NCBI RefSeq assembly: GCF_001281265.1
Contig: NZ_JXDB01000002.1
Span: 124,001-188,000, forward strand
DNA: 64,000 nt
From: Apilactobacillus kunkeei DSM 12361 = ATCC 700308
Lineage (GTDB): Bacteria > Bacillota > Bacilli > Lactobacillales > Lactobacillaceae
Direction of reading: 5' to 3'
This document shows positions 19,029 through 64,000 of the stretch, in pieces. Positions within the stretch are counted from its first letter, which is position 1; every line of letters starts with the position of its first letter. The position numbers and the translations under genes are program-made. Under the pieces are notes generated by a model that did not search any database, was not told the origin of the DNA, and saw only the letters and a list, made by a program, of their open reading frames with translations.

Positions 19029-19029
19029 G

Positions 19030-31392: not shown

Positions 31393-34300
31393 ATGCAATA
31401 CAACAAGCAACAATTCAACAAAGTAAAAGATAAAAAAGTGATGAAAAAAGTTAAGAAACAATGGGTTGTAGTATCCGTTGCTACCTTAGCCTTTTTGGGA
31501 ACCACGGCATACACTATAGGTGGAAATAAGGCCCATGCGGACACTAAGCCTGAAACTAATAGTGGAAGTAATTCTTCAGGAAATACAACAACTCAAAGCG
31601 CTCGATCTAGCTCAAGTTCAAGCGTTTCTTTGACAGCGGCTAGTGGACAAACATCTTCTAGCAACCAAAGTAGCGGGACAAGTGCGTCTTCATCAAACGG
31701 TGGAACAGCAAGTTCTTCTAAACCAGTTGTTAATGTAGGAACTACTAATGGTCAAGCTCCTAGCTTTAACAACAATGATGATTCATCTACTTACGCTCAA
31801 CAAATTCAACAAGGTTATCAAGATGCTTTCAATGGTAAGGCTAACAACTCTGGTACATTAACCGGACAAGCAATTAACTACTACAATGCTGGTTATGCAG
31901 CTGCAGCCGCAGTAATGAACGATTACAACCAAAAGACTCAGGGAATTGGTACTGGTACACAAGATTACACTTACTACGGAAATACGCCTAATAGAAAAGA
32001 CGATGCCGGAAACGTTAAGTCAGCCAGTTTAAGCTCAAGTGGAGCTAGTTTAGCAAGTAATACAGCGGCAAATTCAACTACATCTAACAACTCTTCATCT
32101 GGTGCTGCGTCTAGTAATGGAAGTGGATTTACTGGTGCATCAACTACCAATCCACAAACTGCATTAACAGATGGAACTCCACAAAACTACAACAGTCCGG
32201 ATTCCCCATATCGTGGAGGTGCTGATAATCCATATTCAGCATATACTTCTACACAAAATTACGAACAACAATTACTATCTAAGTTTTCAAATGTTAATAA
32301 TGTCAGTGTTAAATCTTCGAATAGCATTGGTGCTGGAATCATTCCTCAATCCAGCGATGCAATTATTCAACAAGCACGCCAACAATATGCTAACTACGCC
32401 GGTTTGGCGAAGGCTTTTGATACTGCCACAAATATGACTTTGGCAATGCAAGGTTATAATGACGCAGAATCTGGAAAGTGGGTTGGAATTTCTTCAGGAA
32501 ATGCAAGTCAAGGAAACCAAGACTTTTACATGAATTCATTCTCAGGAATTAGAAATTCATCTAATCCATACGATCAAGCATATATTGGTGCAAAAGACTC
32601 AATTGCTAATACTTTTGATAATAATAATAACTTCAAGGTTAATTCTGCATTTAACCCTGTTAATACATCTAATCAATATTACAACATGGGATACAACGAT
32701 GTAGTTAACCAGACTACGGCTAACGGTTCGGGTGTTGTATTCGTATCTAATGGTAAGCAGTTCTACAACGTTTTGACTGGTCAAACTGGTTCAATTAGTA
32801 CTGCAGGTGGAAACGTCGCGAATAACGTTACTAAGATTAAAATTATTGGAGATATCGATTTATCTGGAATTTCTGGTACTGGTGGAGAATATGCAAATAT
32901 TGCTTCAACAGGTTCTTCTATTACTATTGATGGACAAAACCATATGATGGATTTCCATGATATGGATTACTCGTTTACTAATAGTAATTTTACTGACTTA
33001 TATTTACAAAATTTTCAAGCGCTTTATGCATCTAACTACTATGGTCCATTCCGTGTGGGAAATAATGATAATATTCATTATTCAAATATTAATTATATTG
33101 GTGGTCAATTGCTTAGTGCGATTTATCAAAATGTATACTTCTCTGGAAATGTTAATGTTTTAAACCCAGTTAATTATAATAATTTGGCTAATTCTCAATA
33201 TTACAATTCACCATTTACTCAGAATGTATTGACTGTTGGTGGAGGAAATCAACAAAACCTTGAAGTGCAAAACTTTGTTCTAGAAAATAATTCACATTAC
33301 TTTGGTAATACCTCACCTGTTAATGGTGGTAATGCAATTGAATTATATGGAAACATGACTCTTGGACAAAATTCTAAGATGACACTAGCCAGTCGTGATA
33401 CTGGTGGTAATGGTGAAAACGCAATTAATAGTTCTAACATGGCGATTTATTTCCGTAATTCATCCGCCAATTTGAATGTTTCTAAGGATGCTGTGTTAAA
33501 TATTATTCCATTGGCTTCAAAAACTGCTAACCGTTTATCTGGTGGTATTTTCATGAGTGGTGGTAATATCACTGTTGACGGGGGAACTATTAACTTCCAA
33601 GGATATAATGGTACAGCTGGTTACAATAACCAGGCAATTGATATGCAAGGATCTTCCACAATTAAAGTTATCAATGGAGGACTAGTTAAAGTTCTTGAAG
33701 CTGGTTTGCCACAAACTACGGGGACTTACTATACCTTAAATGGTCGTCAGGCGACATTGTATGGATTAATCGCTAACGAAAGCACTAGTGGTAATTTCTA
33801 TGTAGGTAATGGTGGAAACTTGATTGTCGGTCTTACCGACCAAAATGGTGGATATGTAACGCCTTACTACGGTAACTTAACCATCAACGGTGTCGGAAGC
33901 GATCATGTTATTTTTTATAATAACAACACGACTAATAATACTTTCCAAACAGGTGGTAATCAAAACGGTATTAATGCATACAATGTTGGTATATTAGATT
34001 CTTCTAACCGTATTACCCCACTTTATTACTTCAACCTACCTACGGGAAGTATTAATTATACTGGTGTTGATGGCTCAGGTAGTCCAGTAAGCGGTAGTGT
34101 AAACACAACCAAACTAGAAATTCAAAGCATTCCGGCGGTTCAATTTGTTGGAACCAGTGGGGTATCTGTTGATAATAATGGCAATACCGTAATCACTTCT
34201 TATGCAAAGTTGACTAATTATAATTCTATTATTGGCCAAAAACTTTATTATCAAGTTGGATATTCTTCTAACGATCCAAAGGGGAATTTTAACGGCTTAA

Positions 34301-52300: not shown

Positions 52301-53961
52301 GTGATAGTAACGATCCTGTATTTATTGCTGCATACCAACGTGAAGCACAAATTGCTCAACAAGCTGCTAACAATGGTGCTAAGGCATATACTGAAGGACT
52401 AAGTGAAACAGCTGCAGTTAACAAGTACTCAGTAACTCCTGAAGATGCCACTGCAATTAGAATGGGTTACGAACAATCACAATCTGGATACAATGATGGT
52501 AATAAGGCTAATGCACAATCTAAGTCAGATAATCCATATTACCAAGTTGGGTTCAACTATGCTGACTCTGCTTACAAGGGTTATCAATCTGCTCAAAGTA
52601 ATGGTAAACAAAGCACAACTGGTAACGTTGCTACTGACGATGCATATCAAGCAACGATTGCTGCTAGTGCGGATGCCAATAAGGGAATTAAGCAAGATGT
52701 TAGCGGCAAGTCATTGGCTTACCAAGTTACTTACCAACGTGCTTATGATTACTTCTTGGCTAAGAAGAAAGCTGCACAAGAAAGCGACTTCTCTAAGGTA
52801 TCTAAGAAGTACTACAAGAAGAATTACAAGTTGTACAGAGTTTCTAACAAACATGGTGCAAGAATGTACATGAGTCCTAAGTTTACCAAGCATAACTGGA
52901 TTACTACATTGCAACATGGTGATCTAATCAAGGTTATCAAGATTGTTAGATACGGTAAGACAACTAGACTATACGTTGGTCACGGTGAATACGTCACTGG
53001 TAACAAGGATTACGTTGTTGCAACTCAACTAGCCAAGGCCGATAAGAAGACTACTAAGAAGGTTAAGAAGACAACCAAGAAGAAGGTTGTTAAGAAGGTA
53101 ACTCCAGTAATTCAGACAAAACCAGCTAAGAAGAAGGTAGTCAAGAAAACTGAAACAACCAAGAAACCAACTGTAGTTAAGAAGCATAAGACCAAGGCAA
53201 AACAAACATCAATTAAGCAAATTCATAAGAAAGTAGTTACACCAGTTGTTAAGAAACAACAAACTATTAACAACCCAGGCTACTCCGTAACAGTGACTCC
53301 AACGAAGGTAAGTCGTTACTACAGAAAGAACTACACTGAATTCAGACTTCAAAAGGATGCTTTGATTCATACAAGTAAGAACTTTACTGACGGCAACTGG
53401 GTATCAACACTTCGTCGTGGCGATATCATTAGAGTTGAAAAGGTTGTTAAGTTCCATGGAATTACCAGATTCTACCTTGGAAAAGGTCGTTACGTAACAA
53501 GTAACAAGTCATTTGTGATTGATGAGAAGACTTACGATCAACGTAAGGCAACTCAAGATGCCAAGAAGTACAAGGCATCACACAAGTCACTTCCAAAGAA
53601 CTTGTCTGATCATAGTGATGCTTATGTCGACGCTTACTTGAAGGAATTCTATCGTGGCAGCAATGCTAAGGTTACATTCCGCCGTAAGAAGACTGATACT
53701 AATTCAAAGACTACTTCAAACAAGCAAGAAAGTCGTTATTACCGTAAGAACCATAATAAGTTCAGAGTGATAGCTAAGAATGGTATTAGAATTCACACCG
53801 ATTTGAAATTTAACGATAAGAACTGGACTGTGAAATTACAACGTGGAAATGTATTCAAAGTTCAAAAAATAGTTAAATATTATGGAATTACCAGACTATA
53901 TATTGGTCAAAATGAATATGTAACAGGTAATACATCATTTGTTAGAGAAATTACGGATTAA
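31393..53961 (+). CDS. Giant secreted repeat surface protein, 7522 residues (complete)
   Basis: An exported protein of 7522 residues, roughly 0.8 MDa. A basic signal peptide (KKVMKKVKKQW, hydrophobic core, AHAD at about residues 47-50) resembles a degenerate KxYKxGKxW type. Then come a Ser/Asn-rich neck (about 55-270), a mixed region, a pectate-lyase-like beta-helix head (about 447-915) and an Ig-like module (about 916-1075). From about residue 1080 to 7125 the chain is repeats built on a GYxDAxxGY and AYxxAYxxAxxxAxxGAxxF pattern. A short tail has DUF5776-like modules at about 7137-7209, 7307-7376 and 7447-7522, with a Lys-rich linker between the first two. No LPXTG is present, so wall binding probably uses the tail. 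I found no cysteine, and Trp is rare. A strong terminator follows. Family: giant proteins of Apilactobacillus; function unproven, adhesion likely. Confidence 0.92.
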   Translation: MQYNKQQFNKVKDKKVMKKVKKQWVVVSVATLAFLGTTAYTIGGNKAHADTKPETNSGSNSSGNTTTQSARSSSSSSVSLTAASGQTSSSNQSSGTSASSSNGGTASSSKPVVNVGTTNGQAPSFNNNDDSSTYAQQIQQGYQDAFNGKANNSGTLTGQAINYYNAGYAAAAAVMNDYNQKTQGIGTGTQDYTYYGNTPNRKDDAGNVKSASLSSSGASLASNTAANSTTSNNSSSGAASSNGSGFTGASTTNPQTALTDGTPQNYNSPDSPYRGGADNPYSAYTSTQNYEQQLLSKFSNVNNVSVKSSNSIGAGIIPQSSDAIIQQARQQYANYAGLAKAFDTATNMTLAMQGYNDAESGKWVGISSGNASQGNQDFYMNSFSGIRNSSNPYDQAYIGAKDSIANTFDNNNNFKVNSAFNPVNTSNQYYNMGYNDVVNQTTANGSGVVFVSNGKQFYNVLTGQTGSISTAGGNVANNVTKIKIIGDIDLSGISGTGGEYANIASTGSSITIDGQNHMMDFHDMDYSFTNSNFTDLYLQNFQALYASNYYGPFRVGNNDNIHYSNINYIGGQLLSAIYQNVYFSGNVNVLNPVNYNNLANSQYYNSPFTQNVLTVGGGNQQNLEVQNFVLENNSHYFGNTSPVNGGNAIELYGNMTLGQNSKMTLASRDTGGNGENAINSSNMAIYFRNSSANLNVSKDAVLNIIPLASKTANRLSGGIFMSGGNITVDGGTINFQGYNGTAGYNNQAIDMQGSSTIKVINGGLVKVLEAGLPQTTGTYYTLNGRQATLYGLIANESTSGNFYVGNGGNLIVGLTDQNGGYVTPYYGNLTINGVGSDHVIFYNNNTTNNTFQTGGNQNGINAYNVGILDSSNRITPLYYFNLPTGSINYTGVDGSGSPVSGSVNTTKLEIQSIPAVQFVGTSGVSVDNNGNTVITSYAKLTNYNSIIGQKLYYQVGYSSNDPKGNFNGLTTYPNSSSQDLYSNADPNLYTGAINVPTNYSGEIIPITFTLQKSAIGNINPQFVGMRLKYGLTSVNNIVNTSPSAGANNYTITIEGYNSGNNGKVTENGDMGITAGSTAVQQNGIVDGLTDASAGNSNAKNSENFNTRTSTDYTGAYNDAQSGYAAFNKSAPLSIDDLKQTAGFNAAVNPVAYIQGYQKAAYDAGVSDAHFGITSPQLQNIQGYQDGVNQYNQAYLVGLDPNKATLPLATLQSQYGLASTYLGIPASATTTGLSDAQGALSFVQDERNAIINSTSGGYGTVLSNPTQKNAYLDAEAGYFNAVKNVSNPTAANPNPNASKAEQAGFQYGQSLINGALAKQRPTVVNPSAGIYNLSAAQSAYDAVQVALIHSVSNISSESSTTSHGALSDDSYVGDKTVYKSIKYGYYKAAQGQTDISLNSSETESKLDLLEEVGYILYVQPKAYEQGAQTFNNKQANTVANNPYNNSTIGQQSFNSGFSDAQAAFNQGQTDGLNTVKNSSNPQSVSNTAATIPSSYVNDGNLSSSYSTGYKGAVDGYKDGVSSTTGSSANNNSTGANANYETSYQNGNAQGRQQAGANDYVNNTVSQSVANSDTNYATGVDTAAKGHKDGYTAASNQPGNQNITTNNSDKTYVTGFNTGVSDERSDATKSNDAQAFAQGAQDYTNNLPKSVSGHDGYYIAYYSQGYDAARQGLLDARDGKNQSLPTFTPSANKADPTYVNSSTIVAQFTTSLQNAYKLGYSSFNNGKNDATTGFSDSNNALSGNQTALTANDSSKSVAYNVAADIFNTQLASLENTKYNNQQSTSGTLYTDLQNWFSTKAQADYQSGENIAKKTTVAPTAGNTQPQISFGFLQTGFNDLTNGYNGTTGNTINTKSQGYVDGVKQQQQLNTGINTAIQSVQNNAPSDSDQLDAYNGTKAGYMDIATGSTTGSKTITSQYDKVFVDAYNKAYSDGASLANEALQQLSQNQTASDATLNADGAKNVAYTAAYNQVMDGYHSVLGMTTGSTPTSNNNYQQGQVVGHAFMNDYNAAEAKSNPKVSDSSSQTYHGVVDALTKASNNGKIDEIQSSQNGTLYVDGYNRAVADINKASADAVRDFDNGVQPNPSQESTAAIQAGYTQAYQALTTGFKQGLSNPNSSAPANTNAAAGFANGQATAKGYADAIKDFNNGSNNPNANNEPGYSDTMNALLDAQKKQRNNSNTTTVYGLAYSQALGANDGLTAVKNNSSTSDIPTNVPSTVNPFAYQDGYQGSVDGYKDGSASTEGTSTNNSAAQANNPIYQNAYKQGNTAGRLQAGANDYTNGTVSQAEQQKDKDYATGVSIAENGYQDGASGVTKQGQDKPYTTGNTQGIQSADGVKQAQALNSTDNGLSGDSKSAYYGVKDAYAYVANPNIQNSQLPSYGVSGINTQSNAYQAAFAAAKAKALTDESQGVATFQASQDNNYDTTSANATVDTKAMSNGYNQAQKGYTASTTNTFDTTNNSASYKAGNTMYNDIQAGITDAKANPTLGTNYTGSAVRVAAYDGTAGAFNDVLKNTPGASATPLSRDANQSKAYVDAYNQSKDIAIQDGANGALAYVRGQSQATSSDADSQAFNYGYGRAQKGFSDSKTIQSPQASDSAYMTGYNAYQSESLANNDAVSGNRNSYSSAVDKNSYNDAYNAYIAAYTDLSKNPDNTNNPNMTGKSPAYVDAYSAAKTYLQSQYQQGVAQFPQGIAKGTGYNTIGLGSSQAVQMLINGYTDAKQGYTDALSGEQAATTITTSGAISGFQEGQQLLGAVNDVANNGKLTNPSGGDPIYSLAFTAALKAKDAVDANPDVSNLVPSSNLNASNSVYASAYTNAVNTMQANYQKGVQQYLSSQAEPTNPTHEYDMGYNDAKQSFEDAIVRGQSSSTKRTTEAINAFNEGQKALQGYNDAVSTGQINYSAGTDQNQIDANNGATQALNDISNGLANNDSAYVSNSNAFKLAYAKVKQAAQTAYDKGASGYVNGDNNTTASDPLSKVQSAGYNAAKQGHDLQQSGQTLSDTQKNNSALNTGFNDSKSGNEGLAAAGGNTTPDMTNWTQPQKDGYKGTVDAYANGQSDGQMPDLTGKTQAYKDAYTTSYNDARQKATQGATATLTGQTVDQSGWTQKQKDAYTTGVTNANNAYKQNQDNVNATNTYTAGSDGSESFEGAKAGFADGTDGGQTSLDGKSDVFKAAYNKAQQEAKQNAQAGIDEFTANKSNTANASATDAKNVAHNDGYTQAQAGYNGQTGPGINTNDPAYKAGQQLRTDENTGVSAAQKATGSDDKSFTPANDSQKAAYDAALAGITAGANNNNNGQSVPEGDSAQAKAYTDAYNQAHALGMQKAAAGANAFNSGQADTSDNSLAGQAQSQGYKDAQSGHDAAVKNQTPTEAQKNNPSFMAGYNAAESARTGLSDIEKGATTATSHADNNAYNQAQQAYKDASDSIAANPDNPAPTTNTSPAYQEIYKQAQADLKTNYDAGKQQFMDAQSSANTSGASSDQGKGRITQGYTDAQDGFNAAINGQTITNPNDAQKVGMDAAKTVADTVNSSVDGSYKNSNDPIAQAANSATQSAHNDLLSNPDHADVSTDPSIANNPVKAAAYKQAQEQYKANYDAGTNAYLNNTNEPSDDLGKKGYQEANDGFTAGFSGQTSIANQHSAAQSGLSAGEQALAGYNNALSLKDENANAPQVEKDGNNGAKQAFADAKNNTSMSESDLAKEPVAFQAAYNKAKEIAQQAITDGATAFASGQVRPTVTDAITDAQAKAYDDARSGYDAAKTGATLTQEQKNDPSFMAGVKAYQDAQNGRTLFNEGKALPGDATTAEKLAYNATKDAYTAGASDQPQRSDLNQQPGIYQDEYSDSYTDAQQKAQSGASEAFGNSTSKVDQSTWNKAQKDAYNTGEANAEAGFDKTKQDVTAQNNYPTGSNSGEAFDGAKAGFSDGKSGATTDLTNKTQTFINAYNAAKQEAQQAAKAGADQFNAQQGDSADANAKDAISVAHVNGYAQAQAGYNAQNNNNVDNGNKDTSYQSGVQTAKDVAKGSADALSDPSKKDSYNSGSSAQDAAYKATVNGYLDGSYGNNDNATTTDPSQAKAYNDAYQAAKQKGEQAATTGASSYIAGSAKPTGSSAESLAQQKGYQDATDGYNAATNKDATIPTNATDAYKTGFNANKSGQSGINDIENGTTTENVVDSASYNKAQKAYDDASKAISANPDSPATASDSSPVYKTSYTKAVNDLKQNYQDGTNQFVNGSNSADTSGAKSTQAKTQIEQGYTDVQRGFNDKIDGTTTNNANATTQEGANIAQKVIDSVNGVATNNVSSTNDPIIQTANSAAGQAKQDLQNDPDHSTVSDDASIQNNPIKAAAYKVAVNQMHQQYEDGSNDYLNNQTKPITDLGKQGYNDAQAGFAAGFNGTSVPNEHSATKAGQTAGQSALSGYQDALSNKKDNSGDAMQQQANAAALQAFDDAKQNKTTDVSKEPVVAYQLAYQKAQQSAAVATTSGATAFANGETRPTGDDALSQVKQAAYDYAKSGYEAARDGKVTDDDKKNPSFMAGVDAYNQSIKGHDAYVNGEKLPDDASAAEKAGYTASQDAYSSGKNDSAKPSDLGSKPETYQDVYNNAYADAKAKATIGASEAFNNTTAVNQDDWTQAQKAAYAAGKQNATYAYADTKSDNTKANPNAADTDAAQAFDGAKAGFAAGSTGITPNLSDKSNIFLNAFNKAKDEASAAANDGLKEYEAGNSDSSTASNDSLNQAHKAGYQAVSDGYQAQKAGNADNNNQNVNYQAGINLAKQLANGTNDATTNPGNNGNDYKSTAAQEAAYQATLNGYKDGANGNSNNQTPTDVSQSVVYNDAYAAAKQQAQKDASTGASDFNKGLDKPYGADSHSIAQAKGYQDASDGYQLAKNNNVASLPSGATDAYVSGYNAYKSSQAGLNDVENNTTTDHVDKDAYAKAQKAYTDASNAIAASPDKPQTSQYKDPAYVDAYKKAVSDLQTNYQTGQQQFDSGKNVADTTGVTSQQAKDRLAQGYADTKEGFDSVVNNTPISNPNAAQKDGIKSAKTVQDAVSGIVNSNTDSNNQDPVYTSATQAAQQAKTDLVDNPGHSTNSDDPTIQDNPIKKAAYKQAIQAMQVQYNEGANAFVSNQPEPSDKLGQDGYQDAQQGFNTGFAGTKVADNADNGTQTGNKYGLSALNGYQDAYNGVSNSNTGDAPRDDANKAAQQAFDDAKTGNVTVLSNKSLAYQAAYKKAQGDAKQALIHGAQTFADGNASPAVTNAPTGVAAKAYADAVAGYKAAQAGGNYTDEQKANPQFMVGVNAYNDMVSGRQLFTSGGQLTGNESASEKAGYLAAQAAFAAGKNDESKDSTLANESVQYQDAYNNAYDNAKQIATSGANDAYATNPTTDTSNLSSTELDAYNAGKQNAQTAYNAIKGDTTTANNNIVDSDAYNSFEGAKAGFAAGKTGNDTSLDGKSTAYINAYKSAKKEAAQAAAAGLAEFAAGKTDTATISNDALNVAHKNAFDQATSGYNAQVSGQINTNNNDKSYLAGVQTANDMQTGYNDAVSNPNRSVYNGTPAQVAAYHATANGFHDGSYGTNNSTPTDATQAKAYADAYNKAMSAGQAAALAGATTYNSGSAKTDDNSATGQASQKGYDDAKQGHDNAMNNVPAPSNPSAAYQSGAQAVADGKSGASDFNGQNDANANYTSGNANVQTGHDGAKDGYLDAVIGNTKKSFDNSSNKTQAYQDQYNAEYNKALAKASLGAQNQFTNSNQDMTNWTQADKNAYQAGQASASQGYNEARQNPDDATHTGNTNVDESFKGAAAAFNDVKNGEEGQNGTSDASPVYQDAYQVALNAAKQVANNGATSFGNGQDLATQVAKLGNNQADKNAFTKGYNDAQTAYEQAQQTPSQASPYSTGTNSNLVFEAAQNAFSDVKNGEAGAQANKSSDPAYVAAYQRALNEVQPVATNGASGFSNGVNLQQQLESFGNNQAQKDAYTKGYNDAQTAYGQALQNANDNADHNTSSNGDETYRGAAAALLDVKNGTAGQHANTEQSAPYQAAYAKALAQAQAQSNAGATAFGSKTDLNSALGQFGNNQALSDTFAKGYNDASDGYNDAQKDANMSSTHSTNGDKDEVYRGAADAFNAVSRGDNPTPDASQTNAAYLAAFSRAKDQALQIAKDAAVGFNKGTAQQDLLSAQGDNKALQNAVSRGYTDAQLAYSQAEAQPDTTTHQTDSNTDKTFHGASLAFNDVKNGTDGNSRPADGDVVAQSAYDKALSYAQGVAKNGSDAFIKGATFDNTVNSAGANQADKDAITKGYNDAQTAYAEAQRNPSENNPYAANTNSNLVFAAVANAIADLKANNVGAQANASTDKVYVDAYQRALNEAQPQATNGATGFGQGVNLADELAKLGNNQVQKDAYTRGYNDAQAAYAQALQNANDGSDHASSSNGDEVYRGAAAALQDVKNGHAGQNANAEQSAPFRAAYAKALQEAQVQANAGATAFGNSADLNSSLGQFGNNQALKDVFTTGYTDANNGFNAAQQDASKAADHKTSSNEDVAYVGAADAFNAVAQDKDATPDASQTNPAYISAFNRAKALANQLAQKGAVGFNQGKSQADLLAAQGDNTTLKNEISRGYTDAQTAYGQAKSKPDTESRQTDTNADQTFHGSSLAFNDVKLGQLGSSRPADSDVVAQSAYDKALAEAIEILRTGITGYLSDSQLSDLLDRVGDNQSDRDAITKGYNDAQKAYAQAQQNPDQNSPYTANSTNDLVFKAVVNAINDVKSGNDGAQAKASNDIVYIDAYQKALQTAQPETTNGATGFGNDVNLNDQLATFGDNQSQRAAYSKGYSDAQNGYNLALQNANDGVNHTTNSNEDTVYRGAAAALNDIKNGNPGQYANAEQGAPYKAAYAKALAYASQIAKNAGVTYLQNGSLNDSLGQFGGNQSVKDVFTKGYNDAKVGIELVQLGTDQLASHTNGNNVDNTYRGSVLALIDINSNRPNNHLSDSNDPVFIAAYQREAQIAQQAANNGAKAYTEGLSETAAVNKYSVTPEDATAIRMGYEQSQSGYNDGNKANAQSKSDNPYYQVGFNYADSAYKGYQSAQSNGKQSTTGNVATDDAYQATIAASADANKGIKQDVSGKSLAYQVTYQRAYDYFLAKKKAAQESDFSKVSKKYYKKNYKLYRVSNKHGARMYMSPKFTKHNWITTLQHGDLIKVIKIVRYGKTTRLYVGHGEYVTGNKDYVVATQLAKADKKTTKKVKKTTKKKVVKKVTPVIQTKPAKKKVVKKTETTKKPTVVKKHKTKAKQTSIKQIHKKVVTPVVKKQQTINNPGYSVTVTPTKVSRYYRKNYTEFRLQKDALIHTSKNFTDGNWVSTLRRGDIIRVEKVVKFHGITRFYLGKGRYVTSNKSFVIDEKTYDQRKATQDAKKYKASHKSLPKNLSDHSDAYVDAYLKEFYRGSNAKVTFRRKKTDTNSKTTSNKQESRYYRKNHNKFRVIAKNGIRIHTDLKFNDKNWTVKLQRGNVFKVQKIVKYYGITRLYIGQNEYVTGNTSFVREITD
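34637..40440 (+). repeat. Divergent repeat block of giant gene 1, with a 2154-bp paired segment
   Basis: Older, diverged repeats on the GYxDAxxG pattern. One clear long-range pair starts at 35911 and 38065 (GYKGAVDGYKDG and GYQGSVDGYKDG), 2154 bases or 718 codons apart, followed in both by AGANDY, a TVSQ segment and a YATGV segment. Confidence 0.75.
40441..48690 (+). repeat. Superrepeat array A of giant gene 1, about 756 codons per unit
   Basis: Units begin near 40441, 42736, 45004 and 47275, giving periods of 2295, 2268 and 2271 bases, all multiples of three. Each complete unit contains six sub-blocks of about 126 residues. Diagnostic anchors recur in every unit: EGAKAGF or DGAKAGF, and AxxxAHxxGYxQA. 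In the first three units, NPxKxAAYKxA recurs near 42100, 44390 and 46655. The fourth unit is incomplete and passes into a partial unit from about 48355 that resembles the head of unit 1. Confidence 0.85.
48691..52250 (+). repeat. Superrepeat array B of giant gene 1, 1269 bp per unit
   Basis: The segment NLVFEAAQ and its variants recur at 49060, 50329 and 51598 (third base position of comparison identical), exactly 1269 bases or 423 codons apart each time. Each unit has four sub-blocks of about 105 residues ending in G-x-N-Q followed by KGYNDAQ; eleven such sub-block junctions can be counted from 48937 to about 52108. The copies share protein sequence but differ at many synonymous sites. Confidence 0.88.
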
Positions 53962-53985: not shown

Positions 53986-54020
53986 AAAAACCCCCTCATA
54001 TAATTTATGAGGGGGTTTTT
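53986..54020 (+). terminator. Strong terminator of giant gene 1
   Basis: CCCCCTCATA/TATGAGGGGG, a perfect 10-bp GC-rich stem with a 5-nt loop and TTTTT. It separates the two giant genes into independent transcription units. Confidence 0.9.
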
Positions 54021-54035
54021 ACGTATATATTTCAT

Positions 54036-54172: not shown

Positions 54173-57100
54173 TTGCAATATAATAAAAATGAATTTAATA
54201 AAGTAAATGACAAAAAAGTCATGAAAAAGGTTAAGAAACAATGGGTTGTTGTATCCATTGCGACCTTAGCTCTTTTAGGTGCGTCTGCATACGGTATGAC
54301 AAACACTTCCCAAGTGGTTGTTCATGCTGATACAACAGGTGCATCAGGTACATCAAGTAGTGATAATGGTAATGAAAACCAAGCTGAACAACAATCTTCA
54401 GCTACGAGTCTAGGTACTGCAGATGGTTCTGCTGGAAGATCAAAAGCCACATTATCAGCTTTCCAATCAGATTATGATGCGGCGTATAGTTCAGCTTCAA
54501 CTTCAGCAAGTTTAGCTGCTTCTAACGCAGGTTCAAGTGATTTTACCGCTAATAAGTCAAAGGCTTCTTATGCAAACCACCAAGACGCATACGATACAGC
54601 ATACTCAGCTGCATCAACTGCTGCTAGTGTAGCTGCATCACAAAAAGCACATGATGACAGTGTGGCTGCATCATCAAGTGCCGTAAGTGCAGGTATTAGT
54701 GATTACGCTAAAGGCAGGTCAGCTGCTTCAAATGTAGGAGATGTAAACCAATCTACATATAACAGCGCATACAGCCAAGCAAGTAGCGGATTTTATGCTG
54801 CTTTGAACAGTAGTACAGCTAGTGGTGCTAACACTTCAGACGCTAACTACCAAGCTGGATCATCATATGAAGCTAAATACTCAGCTGCGATTTCAGCTGC
54901 CATTAATGATGTTGTTATGAGTAATGGTAACAACATGGCTTCTTACTCAACCGATCAAGGTGCTTACTACAGTGCTGCTTATGCTGGTGCTCAAGTTGCC
55001 ATTAATGCATACTCAAATGCTACTCAAGGTAATGGTACTGGTACTCAAGATTACAACTACTACAACAACACCGCTAACACTTCCTACACTTCAGGAAATG
55101 GATCAACAGCTGCAGTTAAACCAAACATTAACACATCAAATTGGGGCCAAGGTTCAAGCGCTACATATAACGCTTCAGCAGCCGCTTCATACACTGGTTC
55201 ATACAATGACAGTTACCAAGCAAATAAGGGGGGAGCTGATAACCCTAACGATGCTTATAACTCAGTAATTAGCTATGAAAATGACTTAGGTCTAAAATTC
55301 AATAATGCACAAAACACTTCAGTTAAGATTAATGGTCAAAATGCAACATCTGGTACAGCTAACATTAAGGTAGCTTCACAATCAGATGTTAATACCAATA
55401 ATTCTGCATTCTATGGTGCGTTATCTGACGTTTACAAGTACGCAACTTCTGCAGCTCTTGCTAAGCAAGGTATGGTAGATGCCGAAAAAGGTAAGTGGAC
55501 AGGGGTTATTGGTGATGGATCTGCTAAGGGTAAAACCCAAGATTTCTATCTAACAAATAATCCAAACGTTAACACTAGTTCTACTAACCCATACGATCAA
55601 GGATACTTAGGGGCAAAGGCCGCTATCGCTGCTCAATTCAATGGTGGTAACTCTGTTCAATCGATTTCTGCCATTGATGCCTCAAGTAAACAAGACAAGA
55701 ACTACATCGCTGCATACAATGACGTTGTAAGTCAAGCAGCACAAAACGTTGTGTTCGTATCTACTGGTAAGCAATTTGACGGTATTATGAATAACTCAAC
55801 ATTGTTAAGCAAAGGTTTCACAATTAAGTTGGTAAATGATATTGACTTACATCCTGTTAGTACAGCTCAAGAAAATGATGTTAATGTAAATTCTACAGAT
55901 GGTAAAACTTTTGTGATTGATGGTCAAAATCATATTGCTGATATGTCTGGTCAACAGTATAAATTTAATACAAACTCAACTAGTAATACTCAATTATATG
56001 TACAAAACTTCCAAACTCTATATGGAACTAACTATTTTGGACCATTCTCATTATCTAATGGTGGTGCAATTTACTACAAGAATGTTAACTACGTTGGTTC
56101 ACAAATCTTGTCAGCCAAAGGTAACTACGTTTATGTTGATGGTAATGTGAACGTCTTCCAACGTGATGATGTTTACGATTCACCGTTCTTAAAGGGACAA
56201 GGTGCCCAAGGATCAGGTAACCAAAATAACCTATCAATTGCCAACATGGTGTTGAACAAGGGTGCTCACTACTTTGGTTCAGTTGGTTCAAATACTGGTT
56301 CTAACGTTGTTTACATTTCTGGTGGTGGTAATCTTACCTTAGGTGAAGACTCGAGTATGACATTGATTCCTAGAGGTAACGCAACTGGTGGAGACGACGG
56401 TGCTGACCAAGGACCTATGGGTGTCGATATTCAAAATGGTAGTTTGACTGTGAACAAGAACGCCAACTTGAACATCATGCCAGATTACTCCAACACCTAC
56501 CCAGATTATGGTGCCGGTGGTGGTATCTATGTAGGTAGTAATGGTGGTGTTCGTGTTGATGGTGGTCGTATTAACATTGAATCTAACCAATCACCTAAGA
56601 TGTATGGACAAACAAATGCACTACTTTATGTAAATAGTGGTTCAAATGTTTTAGCAACCAATGGTGGTACCATTCAAGTTAAGGTTGCTCATATCAGTGA
56701 CAATCGTGCTCCAAAAGCTCCAACATCTGGTGGTGGATTAGTTTACCTAAATGGTGGTACTGTTCAAGTCGCTAATCGTGGTAACTTAATCTCAGCCATC
56801 TCTGATGGTACAGGTGCAGGTGTTCCTTTAGTTTACGGTAACTTGATTGTCAACAACTCTGGTGATAGTCACGTTATCCTAGATGCTGGTTCAGCTAGAA
56901 ACAGTAATGGAACCAACACCAACCCATTTGTTAGTGGTGGAAATATTAACGCCTACACTGGTAAGGTTAATGGTAAGATTTACTACAACTACCAAATGAA
57001 CCCATCAAGTCAATACACTTCAACTGATCAATACTTGAAGACAACAAATAACACACCTTATTCTGGTGGACAAATCTTAGACATTAGTAGTATTCCTTCT

Positions 57101-60100
57101 GTATATTTCGCTAACCCAATCAGTGCTAAGACTAACAGCGATGGTTCAATAACTGTTTCTGGTATTGCTAAGGTTGCTGGTTACGATGGTTCTGACTATG
57201 CTAAGCAAAACGTTTACCTACAATTTGGTATTGATAAGAATTCAACAACTAACTACAATGATTCCGGTATGACCACATTCCTAACTACTGATTCAACCGG
57301 GAAGACTGTTCAATACTCAAACCCAGCTAAAGATGATAATGGAAATATTGTTGATAACAACGTATACTCTGCAACATCATCATCAAATGTTAATCAAATT
57401 CCAATTAACTTCACAATTCCAGCTAATCAAGCTAATGGAATTAAGACTGTTGGTATTTACATGAGATATGGTGTTAATGGTATCTACATGACTGCAACAC
57501 CAAGTGCTAATGGTGGTAGTGACTATAGTTCATCCATCGTTGGTTACTCAGCCGGTTCAAACGGTGTATTATCTCAAGATTCAGCCGCAACTGTTCAAGT
57601 TAATAGTGGTAAAGGTCAAGATATTACTGATGGTTTAAACAATGCGATTGCTGATGCCACAAACGGTACCAACTCAAAAGATCCATTAAGATATCAAAAG
57701 AACAACGATTATACTGGTGTTTACGATAGTGTAATGAGTGGTTACAAAGCTGCAACTCCTCAATTGCTACAACAATTAGGAATTACGGACCCAACCAAGG
57801 CCCCTACTACACTTACACCTGACCTTTTGGCTAAGATTCAACAACTACCAGAATATCAAAAGGCTTCTAACCCAAGCGCCTTCATGCAAGGTTTACAACA
57901 AGCATATCAAGATTACTTAGCAAACTCACAAGCCGCAAACGACATTGCAAATGCAAGTCCAGCTGCAGCTGCTTCGGTTGCTAACGGTAGTCAAGATTCT
58001 GCTTATAAGAAGAACTATGCTGCTAGTTACAACACAGCACAACAAGCTCTTAACGATGCAGTTGCTGGTACCAAGACTAACAGACCTGCTGACACAGACC
58101 CAACTGGTCAACAAGTTTACGATAAAGCTCAACAACAATATAAAGATGCTCAACAAGCCATGGTTGAAGCTGCCCAAGGTACTACAAACAATCCAAACAA
58201 CTTAGACCCATCAGCTTACCAAGCAGGTCAAACTGCTTACAACCAAATTGTCAATGACGTAAGAAGTGGTAAGAAAGAATCATCAAACGATTCTCCTTTC
58301 AACCAAATGTCACCATTGCAACAAACCTTATATAACCAACAATATGATGCCATTAAAGCAAAATACGATGCTGGTCAACAAGCTGCATTGAGTGGTCAAG
58401 CTGCTCCATCAGATCCACAAGCACTTGCTGGTTACAATGATGCAAAAGATGGTTTCAACAATGCCCAAGTGTCTGATACAGAAAAGAATTCACCTGCATA
58501 CAAGGCCGGTCAAGCTGCCAAGACTGATGAACAAGCTGGACAACAAGCAGCAATGAGCGATTCAAATGCACAACCTACTGATAAAGATTCACAAGCTAAG
58601 AAAGATGGTCTACAAGCAACAAAGGATGCATATGCTGCTGCAAGTGGTCAACAAGCTCCACTAACAGCCGATCAACTAGCACAAAAATCATTACCTTACC
58701 AAGACGCTTATAAGGCCGCTCAAAATAATGCAAACAACACTGTTGCTCAAGCGGAAGCTGACTATAAGAATGGTACAACAGCTAACAAGCCCCAAGGTAA
58801 TGGTGTAGATGCTGCGGCTTACAAGAAGGTTCAAAATGATGCTGCTGCCGGTGCTAATGCTGCTAGTCAACCAGGTAGTGCAGACACACCTGATGCAAAC
58901 CAAACACCTGCATACAAGATGGGTTACAACGTTGCTAAGGGTTCAGCTGACGCTTTAAATGGTGCTACAAAGAATCCTAACAACACTAATCCAGAATATG
59001 GTAAAGCATACGATGAAGCGACTGACGGTTTTAATAGTGCAAACAACACTGCCCCTGAAAACCAAACAGCTGCATACAAGGCAGGTCAACAAGCTAAGGA
59101 AGATTCGCAAACAGGTGCTGATTTAGCAACTAAGGGTCAAGGCCTACCAACTACCCCAGCTCCATCACAAGCTGAACAAGATGGTTATCAAGCTACTAAG
59201 GATGCTTATGATGCTGCTGCTGGTAAGAAGGCACCTATTTCAGACACTGATCTAGCTAAGAAGTCATTAGCTTACCAAGACGCCTACAAGAAGGCACTTG
59301 CTGCTGCTCAACCTGTAGTAAACAACGCACTTGCTGATTACAAGAACGGTTCAACTGCTAACCAACCAAATGATCCAAACAGTGCTGCTGGTCAAGCATA
59401 CAAGGCCGTTAAAGATGATGCCGCTGCCGGTGCTAATGCTGCTAACCAACCAAATAGTGCAGATACACCTGCTTCTGACAAGACACCTGCTTACAAAGAA
59501 GGTTACAACATTGCCAAGGGTGTAAGTGATGCTGAAAATGCTAAACAACCTTCATCAACTAACCAAGACCCTGATTACACTAATGCTTACAACAACTTTA
59601 ATAGTGAAAAAGCGCAAGGTGAAAGTGCTAAACCAACTGATTCTGCTCCAGCTAACGCAGATCAAGCAACCAAAGATGGTTTCGCTTATGGTCAAGGAAT
59701 CGCTGCTCTTAAGAATGCCAAGAACCCAGAAGATCCAAATGCTTCTCAAGGTTTAACTGGTAAACAATTAGATGGTTTCAATGCTGCTAAAGTTGGTTAC
59801 GAAGCTGCAATGAAGGGCCAACCTGCTCCAACTGCTCCAGCCGCTGCTGTTGAAGGTTACAACTACGCAAAAGCGTTAACTGATGGTTCTACTGCAGATA
59901 AGAGACCTGATACTGCTACTGGTAACGATGACCTACCAACTGAACAAAAAGCTTACGATGACACTCAAGCTGCCGTTGCACAAGCAAAGGCCGATATTAA
60001 GGCTGGAAAGACTGGAAGCCAATTAGCTCCTAGTGATGGTAACGCCAACAATAAGGATGTATACGATAAGGCTTACGCCGCTGCTGTTAAGGCTTACCAA

Positions 60101-63100
60101 AACACTGATCCAACTGCTACTGCCGCTTCTGCTGGTATCAAGGATGATGTTGTCGGTGCCGCTGCATTCGAAGCTGCCAAAGCTGACGGTCTAAAGGTTC
60201 AAGGTGCTAAGGCATTCACAGATGGTAAGGCAAACAACCAAAGTGATTCTAACTTTACCAAGGGTTACAACGATGCTAAACAAGGATACGCCGACGCATT
60301 ACATGACAAGAGTGCGCCATCTAATGCCACAGATGAGTACAACACAGGTGCTGCTGCCGCTGCTAACGATAAGGCTGGATTCCTAAGCGCTGAAAACGGT
60401 AAACCTGATGACTCAGATGCCGCTAAGGGTGCTGCTGCTGCTATTGCTGCAGTTAAGGCTGCCAAGGGTAAAGACTTAGATTCATTACCTGAAAGCAATG
60501 ATTCAACCAAGCCTGCATCATACAACAACGCTTACAACGCTGCGTTAGAAGATGCTAAGCAAGCTGCTAAACAAGGTATTGCTTCACAATTAACTCCAGA
60601 TAGCACAAACACTCAAACCCCAGTTCCTGGTGCATTAGCCGATGTTTACAAGGCTGCTGCAAGTGACGCTCAAAAGGGTTACGCTGAAGGATTAACTGGT
60701 AAACCAGTATCGGACAGCAATAATGCTAGCGAGACTCAAGGTAACCAAAAGGGTGCTTCTGATAAACAAAAATATGAAGATGCTTTAGCTGACTTTGCTA
60801 AGGGCATTACTGACCCAGCAAATGCTTCAACTGACCCATCATTGAAGTCAGATCCTGTTTACAGATCAGCTATTTTCGCTTTAGTTGATGCTTCTAAGGG
60901 AACAACTGGTAGTGATAACTCACCTGTATACACAGTTGCAAACTCACAAGCATTAGGTGCCAAGGATGCTCAAGCAGAAATCGCTAAGGATGCTGCCAAT
61001 GGTACTGATCCACAACCAATCAAGGACCTAAGTGATCAAAGACTAGCTCAAACCCCAGCTAAGGATAAGCAATCATACATGAACGCATATAACGACGCTA
61101 TCAAGGGTTACAATGCTGGTAAGAAAAACACATCTGACACACCTAATAATAATGACCAAGCTGATCAAAACGCATTTAATGCTGGTAAAATACTTGGTGA
61201 TGCTGCTCGCGGTGCAAATGATGCATTAAATGGTAAGAAGTCAAACGATGATGTTGCTTCTGATTTAAACAGCACTGATCCAGCTAAGAAGGCTTACGCT
61301 CAAGGTGTTACTGATGCTAACAATGGTTACGCACAAGGCCTAAGTGATCAACAATCAATGAGTTCTGATGCATTAGCTCAAAAGACTCCTGCTTTCCAAA
61401 AGGCCTACGCTCAAGGACAAGCTGACAAGGCCGGTGTTGATGCTGCTAAGTCACAATCAACTCCAGATGCTAACAACGTGCCAGACAACATCAAGAATAA
61501 CCAACAAGCTGCTGATGCTTACAAGGGTTATGCTGCTGCCGTTGCTGCAGTTAAAGCTGCAAAGGGTGACGCTACTAAGGCTGACCGTCCAAGTGACTTT
61601 GATTCACAAACTCCAGACTTTAAGGCTGCTTACCAAAAGGCAATGCAAGATGCTGTAGATGCTAACAAGGCTGGTCAAGATTCCGTTGCTAACCCAAGTT
61701 CAGCTGCTGCTCGTCCAAGTGACCCAGCTCAAGCCGCTGTATACGATGCTGCTAGAAATGATGCAAGCAAGGGTTACGCAGAAGGATTAACTGGTAAACC
61801 AGTTTCAGATACTAATAATGGCAACGAAAAAGCTGGTCAACAAGCTGGTCAAAACGACAAGGCTAAGTATGAAGCTGCTGTTAATGATTATGCAAATGGC
61901 ATCACTGACCCAGCAAAAGCTTCAAACCCAGCTAACGCAAATGACCCAGTATACAAAGAAGCATTGAAGGCAATTGCCGACGGAGCTCAAGGTAGAACTG
62001 ATGCTAACGATAAATCACCTGTATATGCGGTTGCGAACTCACAAGCATTAGCTAAGAAGGATGCAATGGATGCAATTAAAGCAGCCAACACTTCTGCTAA
62101 TGGTACTGATCCACAACCAATTACTAGCGACAATGACCCAAGACTTGCAAATACTCCTGCAACTGATAAGGAATCATACAAGAATGCATTTAACGATGCT
62201 ATCAAGGGTTACAACGCTGGTAAGAACAATGATTCAAGCGCTACACCAACTAACTCTGATCCAGCTGACCAACAAGCATTTAACGATGCTAAGGTTGCTG
62301 GTGAAGCTGCTCGTGGTGCAAATGATGCATTGAACGGTAAGAAGGAAAATGCAGATGTTGCTTCTGATTTAAACAGCACTGATCCAGCTAAAAAGTCATA
62401 CGCTCAAGGTGTTACTGATGCTAACAATGGTTACGCACAAGGTCTAAATGACGCAACTCCAATGAGTAGTGACCAATTAGCTAAGAAGACTCCTGCTTTC
62501 CAAAAGGCCTACGCTCAAGGACAAGCTGACAAGGCCGGTGTTGATGCTGCTAAGTCACAATCAACTCCAGATGCTAACAACGTGCCAGATAACATCAAGA
62601 ATAACCAACAAGCTGCTGACGCATACAAGGGTTACGCTGCTGCCGTTGCTGCAGTGAAAGCTGCAAAGGGTGACGCTACTAAGGCTTACCGTCCAAGTGA
62701 CTTTGACTCACAAACCCCAGACTTCAAGGCTGCTTACCAAAAGGCAATCCAAGATGCTGTAGATGCTAACAAGGCTGGTCAAGATTCAATTGCTAACCCA
62801 AGTTCAGCTGCTGCTCGTCCAAGTGACCCAGCATTAGCTGCTGTATATGATGCTGCTAAGCACGATACTAACAAGGGTATGGCTGAAGTATTAAGTGGTA
62901 AGCAAGGTAATTCAGATTCTTCAAATCAAAACGAACAAGCCGGTATTCAAGCTGGTACCCAACTACAAGCTGCATACCAAGCTGCCGCTAAGGACTTTGC
63001 TGCTGGAATTACTGACCCAACTAATGCAACTCAAAAATTCAGTGATCCTGATCAAGTTCAAGCTTACAAGGATGCATTGGCTGGTATGAAGGATGGTTCA

Positions 63101-64000
63101 CAAACACCTGCTTCAGACCAAAATGATCCTAAGAGCAATTCACCAATTTATGCTATTGCTAAACAACAAGCACAAAACGTTCAAAACGCTGTCGCTGCTG
63201 CTCAAGGTAGTCAAAATGTTGCTGACGGTCATCCTAACCAGGATGCTGACCTAGCAAAAGCAACTGGTTACGACAACGATGACAATAAGCCTGACATGAA
63301 TGATGCATACACTGCTGCAGCTAACGCATACAGCGATGCAATCAACCATACAAATGGTGACAATCCTACAGATCAAAGCAAGTACAGTCCTGCTGATCAA
63401 ATGGCTTATGCTCAAGCTTACAAGGCTGCTAAGGATGCTGCTGCTAAGGGATTAACTGACTTTGGTAATGGTAACAAGGATCAACAACCAAATAACCCAG
63501 CTGATAAGGCTGCTTACAACAAGGCTCAAAGTGATGCTCTTGATGGTTTGAATGATGGATTAGCAAACAATGTCGATACTAATAAACAAGGTAACAACCC
63601 TGCATACAAGCAAGGTGTTGACGATGCTGCCGCAATCAAGAAAGCCGCTGAAGATGCCGTAAATGGTACTCCAGATGCTGGTAAGTCAAGCTTAGTTTCA
63701 GATGCTCAAAAGGCTGCTTACGATGCCATCAAACCTGCTGCTGACGCTGGTCAATCTGAATACACAAATAACCCAGATAAGTACGCTGGTAAGACTGGTG
63801 ACGCCTTGAAGACCGCCGCTAACCAAGCAGCACAAGATAAGTATCCAAACGATCCATTGAAGCAAGCTGCATTTGCTCAAGCAATTGAATCTGCTGGTGA
63901 CGCATTTGGTAACGGTGCTAGCGCATTCGGTAATGGTGAACAACAACCAACTGGTATTGCTGCTGCTGGTTACCAAGCTGCTCAACAAGCATACAATGCT
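54173..64000 (+). CDS. Giant secreted repeat surface protein 2 (3' end beyond the window)
   Basis: The reading frame starts at a TTG at 54173 with AGGGGAT upstream. It aligns with the ATG of giant gene 1 (QYNKNEFNKV against QYNKQQFNKV) and stays open for 3276 codons to the edge. The layout repeats that of its neighbour: signal peptide with KKVMKKVKKQW and a cut near VHAD, a Ser/Ala-rich neck rich in AYSAAS-type blocks, a GTGTQDY segment shared with giant 1, a pectate-lyase-like beta-helix (about residues 525-970, VFVSTGKQF, FVIDGQNH, GTNYFGPF), an Ig-like module to about 1128, then Ala-rich repeats. The start at TTG, not the internal ATG at 54221, keeps the conserved N-terminus. The C-terminus is unseen; a DUF5776-like tail is expected by analogy. 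Confidence 0.9.
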   Translation, partial: MQYNKNEFNKVNDKKVMKKVKKQWVVVSIATLALLGASAYGMTNTSQVVVHADTTGASGTSSSDNGNENQAEQQSSATSLGTADGSAGRSKATLSAFQSDYDAAYSSASTSASLAASNAGSSDFTANKSKASYANHQDAYDTAYSAASTAASVAASQKAHDDSVAASSSAVSAGISDYAKGRSAASNVGDVNQSTYNSAYSQASSGFYAALNSSTASGANTSDANYQAGSSYEAKYSAAISAAINDVVMSNGNNMASYSTDQGAYYSAAYAGAQVAINAYSNATQGNGTGTQDYNYYNNTANTSYTSGNGSTAAVKPNINTSNWGQGSSATYNASAAASYTGSYNDSYQANKGGADNPNDAYNSVISYENDLGLKFNNAQNTSVKINGQNATSGTANIKVASQSDVNTNNSAFYGALSDVYKYATSAALAKQGMVDAEKGKWTGVIGDGSAKGKTQDFYLTNNPNVNTSSTNPYDQGYLGAKAAIAAQFNGGNSVQSISAIDASSKQDKNYIAAYNDVVSQAAQNVVFVSTGKQFDGIMNNSTLLSKGFTIKLVNDIDLHPVSTAQENDVNVNSTDGKTFVIDGQNHIADMSGQQYKFNTNSTSNTQLYVQNFQTLYGTNYFGPFSLSNGGAIYYKNVNYVGSQILSAKGNYVYVDGNVNVFQRDDVYDSPFLKGQGAQGSGNQNNLSIANMVLNKGAHYFGSVGSNTGSNVVYISGGGNLTLGEDSSMTLIPRGNATGGDDGADQGPMGVDIQNGSLTVNKNANLNIMPDYSNTYPDYGAGGGIYVGSNGGVRVDGGRINIESNQSPKMYGQTNALLYVNSGSNVLATNGGTIQVKVAHISDNRAPKAPTSGGGLVYLNGGTVQVANRGNLISAISDGTGAGVPLVYGNLIVNNSGDSHVILDAGSARNSNGTNTNPFVSGGNINAYTGKVNGKIYYNYQMNPSSQYTSTDQYLKTTNNTPYSGGQILDISSIPSVYFANPISAKTNSDGSITVSGIAKVAGYDGSDYAKQNVYLQFGIDKNSTTNYNDSGMTTFLTTDSTGKTVQYSNPAKDDNGNIVDNNVYSATSSSNVNQIPINFTIPANQANGIKTVGIYMRYGVNGIYMTATPSANGGSDYSSSIVGYSAGSNGVLSQDSAATVQVNSGKGQDITDGLNNAIADATNGTNSKDPLRYQKNNDYTGVYDSVMSGYKAATPQLLQQLGITDPTKAPTTLTPDLLAKIQQLPEYQKASNPSAFMQGLQQAYQDYLANSQAANDIANASPAAAASVANGSQDSAYKKNYAASYNTAQQALNDAVAGTKTNRPADTDPTGQQVYDKAQQQYKDAQQAMVEAAQGTTNNPNNLDPSAYQAGQTAYNQIVNDVRSGKKESSNDSPFNQMSPLQQTLYNQQYDAIKAKYDAGQQAALSGQAAPSDPQALAGYNDAKDGFNNAQVSDTEKNSPAYKAGQAAKTDEQAGQQAAMSDSNAQPTDKDSQAKKDGLQATKDAYAAASGQQAPLTADQLAQKSLPYQDAYKAAQNNANNTVAQAEADYKNGTTANKPQGNGVDAAAYKKVQNDAAAGANAASQPGSADTPDANQTPAYKMGYNVAKGSADALNGATKNPNNTNPEYGKAYDEATDGFNSANNTAPENQTAAYKAGQQAKEDSQTGADLATKGQGLPTTPAPSQAEQDGYQATKDAYDAAAGKKAPISDTDLAKKSLAYQDAYKKALAAAQPVVNNALADYKNGSTANQPNDPNSAAGQAYKAVKDDAAAGANAANQPNSADTPASDKTPAYKEGYNIAKGVSDAENAKQPSSTNQDPDYTNAYNNFNSEKAQGESAKPTDSAPANADQATKDGFAYGQGIAALKNAKNPEDPNASQGLTGKQLDGFNAAKVGYEAAMKGQPAPTAPAAAVEGYNYAKALTDGSTADKRPDTATGNDDLPTEQKAYDDTQAAVAQAKADIKAGKTGSQLAPSDGNANNKDVYDKAYAAAVKAYQNTDPTATAASAGIKDDVVGAAAFEAAKADGLKVQGAKAFTDGKANNQSDSNFTKGYNDAKQGYADALHDKSAPSNATDEYNTGAAAAANDKAGFLSAENGKPDDSDAAKGAAAAIAAVKAAKGKDLDSLPESNDSTKPASYNNAYNAALEDAKQAAKQGIASQLTPDSTNTQTPVPGALADVYKAAASDAQKGYAEGLTGKPVSDSNNASETQGNQKGASDKQKYEDALADFAKGITDPANASTDPSLKSDPVYRSAIFALVDASKGTTGSDNSPVYTVANSQALGAKDAQAEIAKDAANGTDPQPIKDLSDQRLAQTPAKDKQSYMNAYNDAIKGYNAGKKNTSDTPNNNDQADQNAFNAGKILGDAARGANDALNGKKSNDDVASDLNSTDPAKKAYAQGVTDANNGYAQGLSDQQSMSSDALAQKTPAFQKAYAQGQADKAGVDAAKSQSTPDANNVPDNIKNNQQAADAYKGYAAAVAAVKAAKGDATKADRPSDFDSQTPDFKAAYQKAMQDAVDANKAGQDSVANPSSAAARPSDPAQAAVYDAARNDASKGYAEGLTGKPVSDTNNGNEKAGQQAGQNDKAKYEAAVNDYANGITDPAKASNPANANDPVYKEALKAIADGAQGRTDANDKSPVYAVANSQALAKKDAMDAIKAANTSANGTDPQPITSDNDPRLANTPATDKESYKNAFNDAIKGYNAGKNNDSSATPTNSDPADQQAFNDAKVAGEAARGANDALNGKKENADVASDLNSTDPAKKSYAQGVTDANNGYAQGLNDATPMSSDQLAKKTPAFQKAYAQGQADKAGVDAAKSQSTPDANNVPDNIKNNQQAADAYKGYAAAVAAVKAAKGDATKAYRPSDFDSQTPDFKAAYQKAIQDAVDANKAGQDSIANPSSAAARPSDPALAAVYDAAKHDTNKGMAEVLSGKQGNSDSSNQNEQAGIQAGTQLQAAYQAAAKDFAAGITDPTNATQKFSDPDQVQAYKDALAGMKDGSQTPASDQNDPKSNSPIYAIAKQQAQNVQNAVAAAQGSQNVADGHPNQDADLAKATGYDNDDNKPDMNDAYTAAANAYSDAINHTNGDNPTDQSKYSPADQMAYAQAYKAAKDAAAKGLTDFGNGNKDQQPNNPADKAAYNKAQSDALDGLNDGLANNVDTNKQGNNPAYKQGVDDAAAIKKAAEDAVNGTPDAGKSSLVSDAQKAAYDAIKPAADAGQSEYTNNPDKYAGKTGDALKTAANQAAQDKYPNDPLKQAAFAQAIESAGDAFGNGASAFGNGEQQPTGIAAAGYQAAQQAYNA
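60677..62900 (+). repeat. Recent superrepeat in giant gene 2, 1095-1104 bp per unit
   Basis: The segment from about 61262 to 61770 recurs from about 62366 to 62870 at an offset of exactly 1104 bases (368 codons), with long stretches identical at the DNA level. A related, more diverged copy starts at 60677 (GYAEGLTGKPVSD) and its partner at 61772, 1095 bases apart. A shorter, older pair lies upstream at about 58688 and 59264, near 193 codons apart. Confidence 0.85.

Follow-up and report, generated by a model that had tools for sequence, protein, structure and literature searches.

Giant tandem surface-protein genes in the Apilactobacillus kunkeei species complex: probable fibrillar adhesins beside a pair of SdgA/SdgB-like glycosyltransferases

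Giant1 and Giant2, two very large neighbouring genes in a genome of the Apilactobacillus kunkeei species complex, probably encode fibrillar adhesins, i.e., chains exported by Sec and held at the wall by DUF5776 domains, in which a helical rod bears a binding head. The analysed stretch of DNA (hereafter the window) had 64 kb and corresponded to C2:124001-188000 of a 1.516-Mb genome with a completeness of 99.96%. Giant1 (31393..53961, plus strand) was complete, with an ATG start and one uninterrupted frame of 7522 aa. Giant2 (54173..64000, plus strand) started with TTG and was still open at the window end after 3276 aa; in the genome its frame closed beyond the window, for a total of 4579 aa at C2:178173-191912. 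An earlier inspection of the letters alone (the sequence-only reading) had described the two as a tandem pair of giant surface-protein genes, and both frames were indeed found intact. The same contig extended the array downstream to five genes, since followed on the strand of Giant1 by Giant3 (C2:192120-217148, 8342 aa from its ATG), Giant4 (C2:217476-234467, 5663 aa) and Giant5 (C2:234718-244107, 3129 aa). From Giant1 to Giant5 the array covered 89 kb (C2:155393-244107), with adenylosuccinate synthetase and lyase and pyrimidine genes upstream and two glycosyltransferase genes downstream. Protein alignment of Giant1 and Giant2 covered residues 274-1162 of Giant1 with 31% identity, and the C-termini aligned as well; together with a Ser-rich stretch behind both signals, this bears out the module order proposed as common to the two proteins. 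Neither a tRNA nor an Rfam match at the gathering level was found within the 64-kb window. Outside it, about 86 kb upstream of Giant1, lay a sixth giant of 3350 aa (C2:59023-69075; L023:3023-13075), with a signal start of the same type, DUF1542 repeats, which we take to be Ebh/SasC-like, and DUF5776 tails.

The locus is the published Giant1-5 cluster, which it matched on each tested point (order, lengths, domains and flanks), so that the kinship with A. kunkeei giants suggested by the sequence-only reading was right and could be sharpened. The finding of giant genes is itself already known from Tamarit 2015 (PMC4494060) and Seeger 2023 (PMC10496945), which also cover the extracellular detection, and from Pedersen 2026 (PMC12863079); these and the other papers cited here are used as far as their available text extends. 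Pedersen 2026 describes Giant1-5 as five consecutive A. kunkeei genes whose products have a signal peptide, an Ig-like module and DUF5776 tails, with a beta-solenoid head like that of serine-rich repeat proteins (SRRP) in Giant1-4 and long helical repeats in Giant1-3; upstream are purB/pyrB, and downstream is a gene pair to which the names tarM and gtfA are given. Relative to the available text of these accounts, what this analysis adds is the recognition of KxYKxGKxW-type signals, the assignment of the flanking pair to the glycosyltransferases, and the sixth DUF5776 giant.

The giants are not an assembly artefact, because long unbroken counterparts were present in other Apilactobacillus assemblies: open frames of 7540, 7550 and 7556 aa for Giant1, 4618 aa for Giant2 and 8265-8366 aa for Giant3. 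The closest named heads, those of A. zhangqiuensis and A. waqarii, had 91% identity in a search that may omit very near records. The dN/dS ratio of the rod was 0.083, 0.093 and 0.112 against three relatives (435 codons), and that of the head 0.044 and 0.042 against two relatives (639 codons); these ratios point to constraint, the head values being only rough because dS there exceeded 1. Between Giant1 and Giant2 there was an intrinsic terminator (53986..54020) with perfect 15-bp arms and a 5-nt loop; its hairpin had a folding energy of -24 kcal/mol (z -7.2) and carried an A-tract and a T-tract within the stem. Giant2 to Giant5 each had a 3' hairpin too, with arms of 14-27 nt and 85-100% complementarity. 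As a hairpin stood behind every giant, each is probably a separate transcription unit. These hairpins came from folding and a repeat search; the terminator scan gave no match at the giants, probably because the T-tract sits inside the stem. Of the promoter and terminator that each gene had been assigned earlier, the terminators thus stood; promoter-like sites numbered 3 before Giant1 (4.7 expected from shuffled sequence) and 5 before Giant2 (4.2 expected), i.e., not above chance.

Sequence repeats occupied Giant1 from about 34850 to about 52690 (plus strand). Near the C-terminal end of this region the repeat had 106 aa, with three long helices and one short, and there was a 423-aa super-repeat. 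Two adjacent copies of it shared 64% of their residues and 68% of their nucleotides, and in-frame duplication of four-repeat blocks seems to account for the growth of part of the rod. Adjacent 423-residue super-repeats of Giant1 can be seen at 48961-51525 of the window. Residues 5856-6290 of Giant1 (48958..50262, plus strand) were modelled from 42 rows, consisting of in-gene repeats and relatives, and gave a predicted all-helical solenoid with ordered loops (435 residues, pLDDT 94.6, pTM 0.86). The folds of head and rod discussed here are predictions, that of the rod coming from this single 435-residue segment, with the remaining rod known from sequence alone. Foldseek returned 119 PDB matches for the rod model at E<=10, none of them at E<=0.001 (best E 0.97, TM 0.17), and 150 matches in BFVD (viral), again none at E<=0.001; the rod profile had 0 matches at E<=0.1 among PDB chain sequences. 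Since Foldseek copes poorly with helical repeats, its null result argues only weakly that the predicted rod is a new fold. The result agrees with PMC12863079, where such helical repeats are called previously undescribed and where the published models show a long stalk; those models and ours back the long stalk proposed in the sequence-only reading. At E<=1e-10 the rod profile matched 15 of 301 family genomes, 14 of them Apilactobacillus and one of another genus. Ser made up 8.7%, 6.0% and 8.9% of the repeat regions of Giant1, Giant2 and Giant3, and Ala 15.8-21.6%.

The C-terminal region of Giant1 (52801..53961, plus strand) was strongly basic and contained three DUF5776 (SH3b-like) domains (PF19087, E 6.4e-36, three stretches). 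All of Giant1-5 had C-terminal DUF5776 above the cut-off; in Giant2 one domain was above it and one just below, in keeping with the 2-4 such domains that mark the Giant1-5 family. The last 420 residues of the giants were basic, with net charges from +12 to +73 (Giant1, +73), and the middle parts acidic. No LPxTG-like motif was found in Giant1-3, Giant5 or the sixth giant, and the single match in Giant4 was internal, not C-terminal. PMC12208459 describes DUF5776 as SH3-related, with binding still to be demonstrated; attachment of the giants to the wall is what we infer from these ends, as we do binding and ligand class from the head (see below). Cell-free pellets contained all five giants in strain A0901 and the first two in A1401 (PMC10496945), and the five were also detected in whole-cell lysate (PMC12863079). 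Transmembrane domains were reported in three giants in the former paper; none were predicted in the latter. Since much of the evidence concerns released protein, anchoring may be loose. A rather unlikely alternative is that the giants are mainly shed and become entangled with alpha-glucan in a biofilm or particle matrix, attachment being secondary. Their occurrence in cell-free pellets along with GH70 enzymes (PMC10496945) would agree with such a mat, as would the lack of a visible covalent anchor at the C-terminus; however, DUF5776 ends are present on all five giants, the lysate contained them as well, and the head has the fold of a known adhesin, which favours adhesins attached to the cell.

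The signal peptide region of Giant1 (31393..31545, plus strand) scored 19.0 bits with PF19258 in the genome search (cut-off 23.6) and 12.8 bits with TIGR03715 (cut-off 18). PF19258 had 15 matches at E<=0.1 in the genome; Giant4 exceeded the cut-off with 24.2 bits, Giant3 had 23.3, or 23.8 when counted with its neighbours, and the sixth giant (22.3), Giant2 (21.3) and Giant5 (19.8) were below it. Judged by these scores, the giants' signals are divergent relatives of the KxYKxGKxW signal, a term absent from the main text of PMC12863079. The Ser-rich neck of Giant1 (31543..31782, plus strand; residues 51-130) had 32.5% Ser and 13.8% Thr, and the same residues of Giant2 had 25% Ser. Ser and Thr together accounted for 46%, 35% and 47.5% of residues 51-130 in Giant1, Giant2 and Giant5, and for 21% and 22.5% in Giant3 and Giant4.

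The head of Giant1 (32713..34632, plus strand) is predicted to be a Pectate_lyase_5-like beta-solenoid followed by a beta-rich module. It matched PF20585, the "putative pectate lyase-like adhesive domain" (E 2.6e-9), and an AlphaFold2 model from an alignment of 16 heads had pLDDT 79.6 and pTM 0.83, with beta strands after the solenoid at the site of the expected Ig-like module. Foldseek found 497 PDB matches for this model at E<=10, of which four were at E<=0.001, all of them Limosilactobacillus reuteri SRRP chains (5ny0 and 5nxk); a profile of three heads had 0 matches at E<=0.1 among PDB chain sequences. The Giant2 head (55748..57580, plus strand) was homologous to that of Giant1 (33% identity, blastp). 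The L. reuteri SRRP binding region is described as binding epithelial cells and pectic acids (PMC9210967), and SRRP ligand residues are not conserved in the giants according to the available text of PMC12863079. Note that a giant-type head was also found in Fructobacillus tropaeoli F214-1 (L035:10001-11838), where the match shifts frame between 11164 and 11251, so that either the gene is broken or the sequence contains an error. It is quite improbable that the head is a pectate-lyase-like beta-helix enzyme which the rod displays for the degradation of pollen or plant walls, not for adhesion. The Pfam match to a pectate-lyase-like fold would suit an enzyme, and so would a niche rich in plant polysaccharide, as inferred from the habitats in PMC12863079, but by its description PF20585 is adhesive, and structurally nothing other than SRRP binding regions matched at E<=0.001.

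As for export, the genome had a single SecA, whose 916.7 bits fell narrowly short of the SecA2 cut-off (930), and a single SecY (186.4 bits; SecY2 cut-off 249.6). No accessory SecA2/SecY2 was over the cut-off in the 99.96%-complete genome, and an accessory pair is absent because the single SecA and SecY must be the housekeeping copies. That the giants are true SRRPs exported by SecA2/SecY2 is extremely improbable and was rejected: the SRRP-like head fold, the KxYKxGKxW-related signals, the Ser-rich neck, the GtfA-like glycosyltransferases adjoining the array and the 17.6% Ser of Giant5 would fit, but the Sec result refutes it, barring a second SecA absent from the assembly, the repeats of Giant1-3 have the low-Ser, Ala-rich composition given above, C-terminal LPxTG is lacking, and the available text of PMC12863079 gives the AST domain (SecA2 targeting) as absent from the giants.

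Directly after Giant5 and opposite to it were two tandem SdgA/SdgB/GtfA-like genes for proteins of 504 aa and 544 aa (C2:244150-247301; L013:15150-18301). Both enzymes were of the GT4 glycosyltransferase type and had the EX7E motif, which is catalytic. Their top NCBIfam models were SdgA and SdgB, SdgA with E values of 1.5e-62 and 2.5e-73; with NF047880, whose cut-off is 800 bits, they reached 211.8 and 247.3, which makes them homologues and not members. Among PDB sequences the best matches were 7ec7/7ec1, presumably SdgB, with E values of 1.9e-53 and 5.9e-43. GtfA and TarM followed far behind (TarM, 4.7e-20 and 1.5e-21), with TarM ranking ahead of GtfA (6.5e-13) for the 504-aa enzyme; a TarM (wall teichoic acid) identity of the pair is disfavoured by the far better 7ec1/7ec7 matches. 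PMC12863079 calls the two "glycosyl hydrolases (tarM and gtfA)", in its available text without further discussion. On sequence comparison they are not hydrolases but glycosyltransferases, nearest to SdgA/SdgB, the O-glycosyltransferases of adhesins. Protein glycosylation in L. plantarum and Enterococcus faecalis depends on enzyme pairs of this sort (PMC5796085, PMC5542707), and SdgA/SdgB modify staphylococcal adhesins (PMC3794999). The Ser/Thr-rich necks of Giant1, Giant2 and Giant5 could be the target.

We examined the association of pair and giants in 16 Apilactobacillus genomes, counting as full-length the glycosyltransferase matches of 175 bits or more (the next had 58.4). There were 33 such matches in 15 of the 16 genomes, forming 17 loci (16 pairs and one single), and 16 of the 17 loci lay near a giant, in several arrangements. 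In 12 loci the distance was 65-339 bp from a DUF5776 match in an ORF of at least 1369 aa, among the DUF5776 matches listed; two loci directly preceded a giant on the same strand (G008, G012), two had a giant 4.3 and 7.8 kb away (G002, G012), and one had no giant on its 17.8-kb contig (G014). Distances were read by hand from match lists and ORF maps, and the 12 short ones were recomputed. G003 and G012 had two pairs each, every pair near a giant. The counter-cases were G006 (93% complete), where four giant heads were found but a full-length pair was not, and G010 and G014, where a pair was present and giant heads were absent. One inherited neighbourhood probably accounts for most of the 12 close cases; the arrangements differed, however (convergent, co-directional and between two giants), and therefore not only one inherited neighbourhood is involved. 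In G008 (L106, G008:C36:40001-60000, positions 5981-19999) a giant with a KxYKxGKxW-like start and an open frame of 5920 aa came directly behind a same-strand glycosyltransferase pair, possibly in one transcript with it.

In the wider family, homologues of the 544-aa enzyme (E<=1e-30) were present in 90 of the 151 genomes drawn, six of the 90 being Apilactobacillus. Twenty regions were hand-picked from the better-scoring of these 90, 19 outside the genus (18 genomes) and one, L083, in G014; the stretches read were up to 20 kb, ORFs of at least 700 aa were considered, and KxYKxGKxW-like starts were judged by eye. All 20 regions had a tandem pair, and in four of them (L082, L085, L090 and L097) the same stretch also held a large ORF of 913-2565 aa whose start was KxYKxGKxW-like; 15 of the 19 regions outside the genus had no large surface gene by the pair. 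A pair exclusive to giants is ruled out, as pairs are common across the family and in the regions read mostly have no large surface ORF nearby. Rather, we read the two enzymes as serving protein glycosylation in general and as having come to lie next to the giants in this genus, the giants being likely but putative substrates; in the open-access literature, as far as its text was available, no treatment of a link between pair and giants was found. The fuller proposal, which we would put a little short of an even chance, is that the giants are O-glycosylated by the flanking pair, perhaps on the Ser/Thr-rich necks, and then exported by the housekeeping Sec pathway. They would be glycoprotein rods with a helical-solenoid fold unmatched in solved structures, hybrids of an SRRP-style head and signal with another stalk, anchor and export.

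As fibrillar adhesins of the A. kunkeei species complex, whose members are fructophilic symbionts of bees, Giant1 and Giant2 would leave the cell by the ordinary Sec pathway through their divergent KxYKxGKxW signal peptides, and the basic DUF5776/SH3b-like domains at their C-termini would hold them non-covalently at the wall. Helical repeats spanning thousands of residues would form a stiff solenoid and carry the N-terminal beta-solenoid head outward; the most likely ligand of the head would be a polysaccharide or glycoprotein, whether from the bee, nectar, pollen or neighbouring cells. Addition of O-GlcNAc by the neighbouring SdgA/SdgB/GtfA-like pair is the weaker part of this scheme. The interpretation in the sequence-only reading is supported in outline, and its statement that the function is not established still holds for the giants. 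About 6% of the 1.5-Mb genome is devoted to five surface chains, in a species described as a defensive symbiont of honeybees (PMC12863079). The flanking enzymes, apparently of an adhesin-modifying type, offer a testable handle on whether the giants are glycoproteins, and the confidently predicted rod fold, for which Foldseek gave nothing in the PDB at E<=0.001, could be a new kind of stalk.

Compared with other known systems, the giants have the architecture of fibrillar adhesins, as far as architecture goes: an adhesive-type head, a stalk and a tail. They resemble the L. reuteri SRRP in being large surface proteins with a beta-solenoid binding region (5ny0, 5nxk) and a KxYKxGKxW signal, stated for such adhesins in PMC10496945, but differ from it in the lack of SecA2/SecY2 over the cut-off and of a C-terminal LPxTG, and in that Giant1-3 are Ser-rich only in a short neck and have a helical rod in place of Ser-rich repeats. 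With the staphylococcal SDR adhesins modified by SdgA/SdgB (PMC3794999) they share tandem GT4 enzymes beside large adhesin genes, whereas glycosylation of the giants is putative and the enzymes here scored far below the family cut-off (see above). The megaproteins of Nicoliella, a related fructophilic genus, are likewise very large and secreted, some with DUF5776 tails (PMC11349052); they are reported as Nicoliella-specific and Ser/Ala-rich, and are likened to the giants by description alone. The published Giant1-5 of A. kunkeei agree in the five genes, the beta-solenoid head, the helical rod, the DUF5776 tail, the pur/pyr genes upstream and tarM/gtfA downstream. Published Giant1 reaches residue 7535 and that of the present genome has 7522 aa; there is no essential difference, the present genome belonging to the same species complex.
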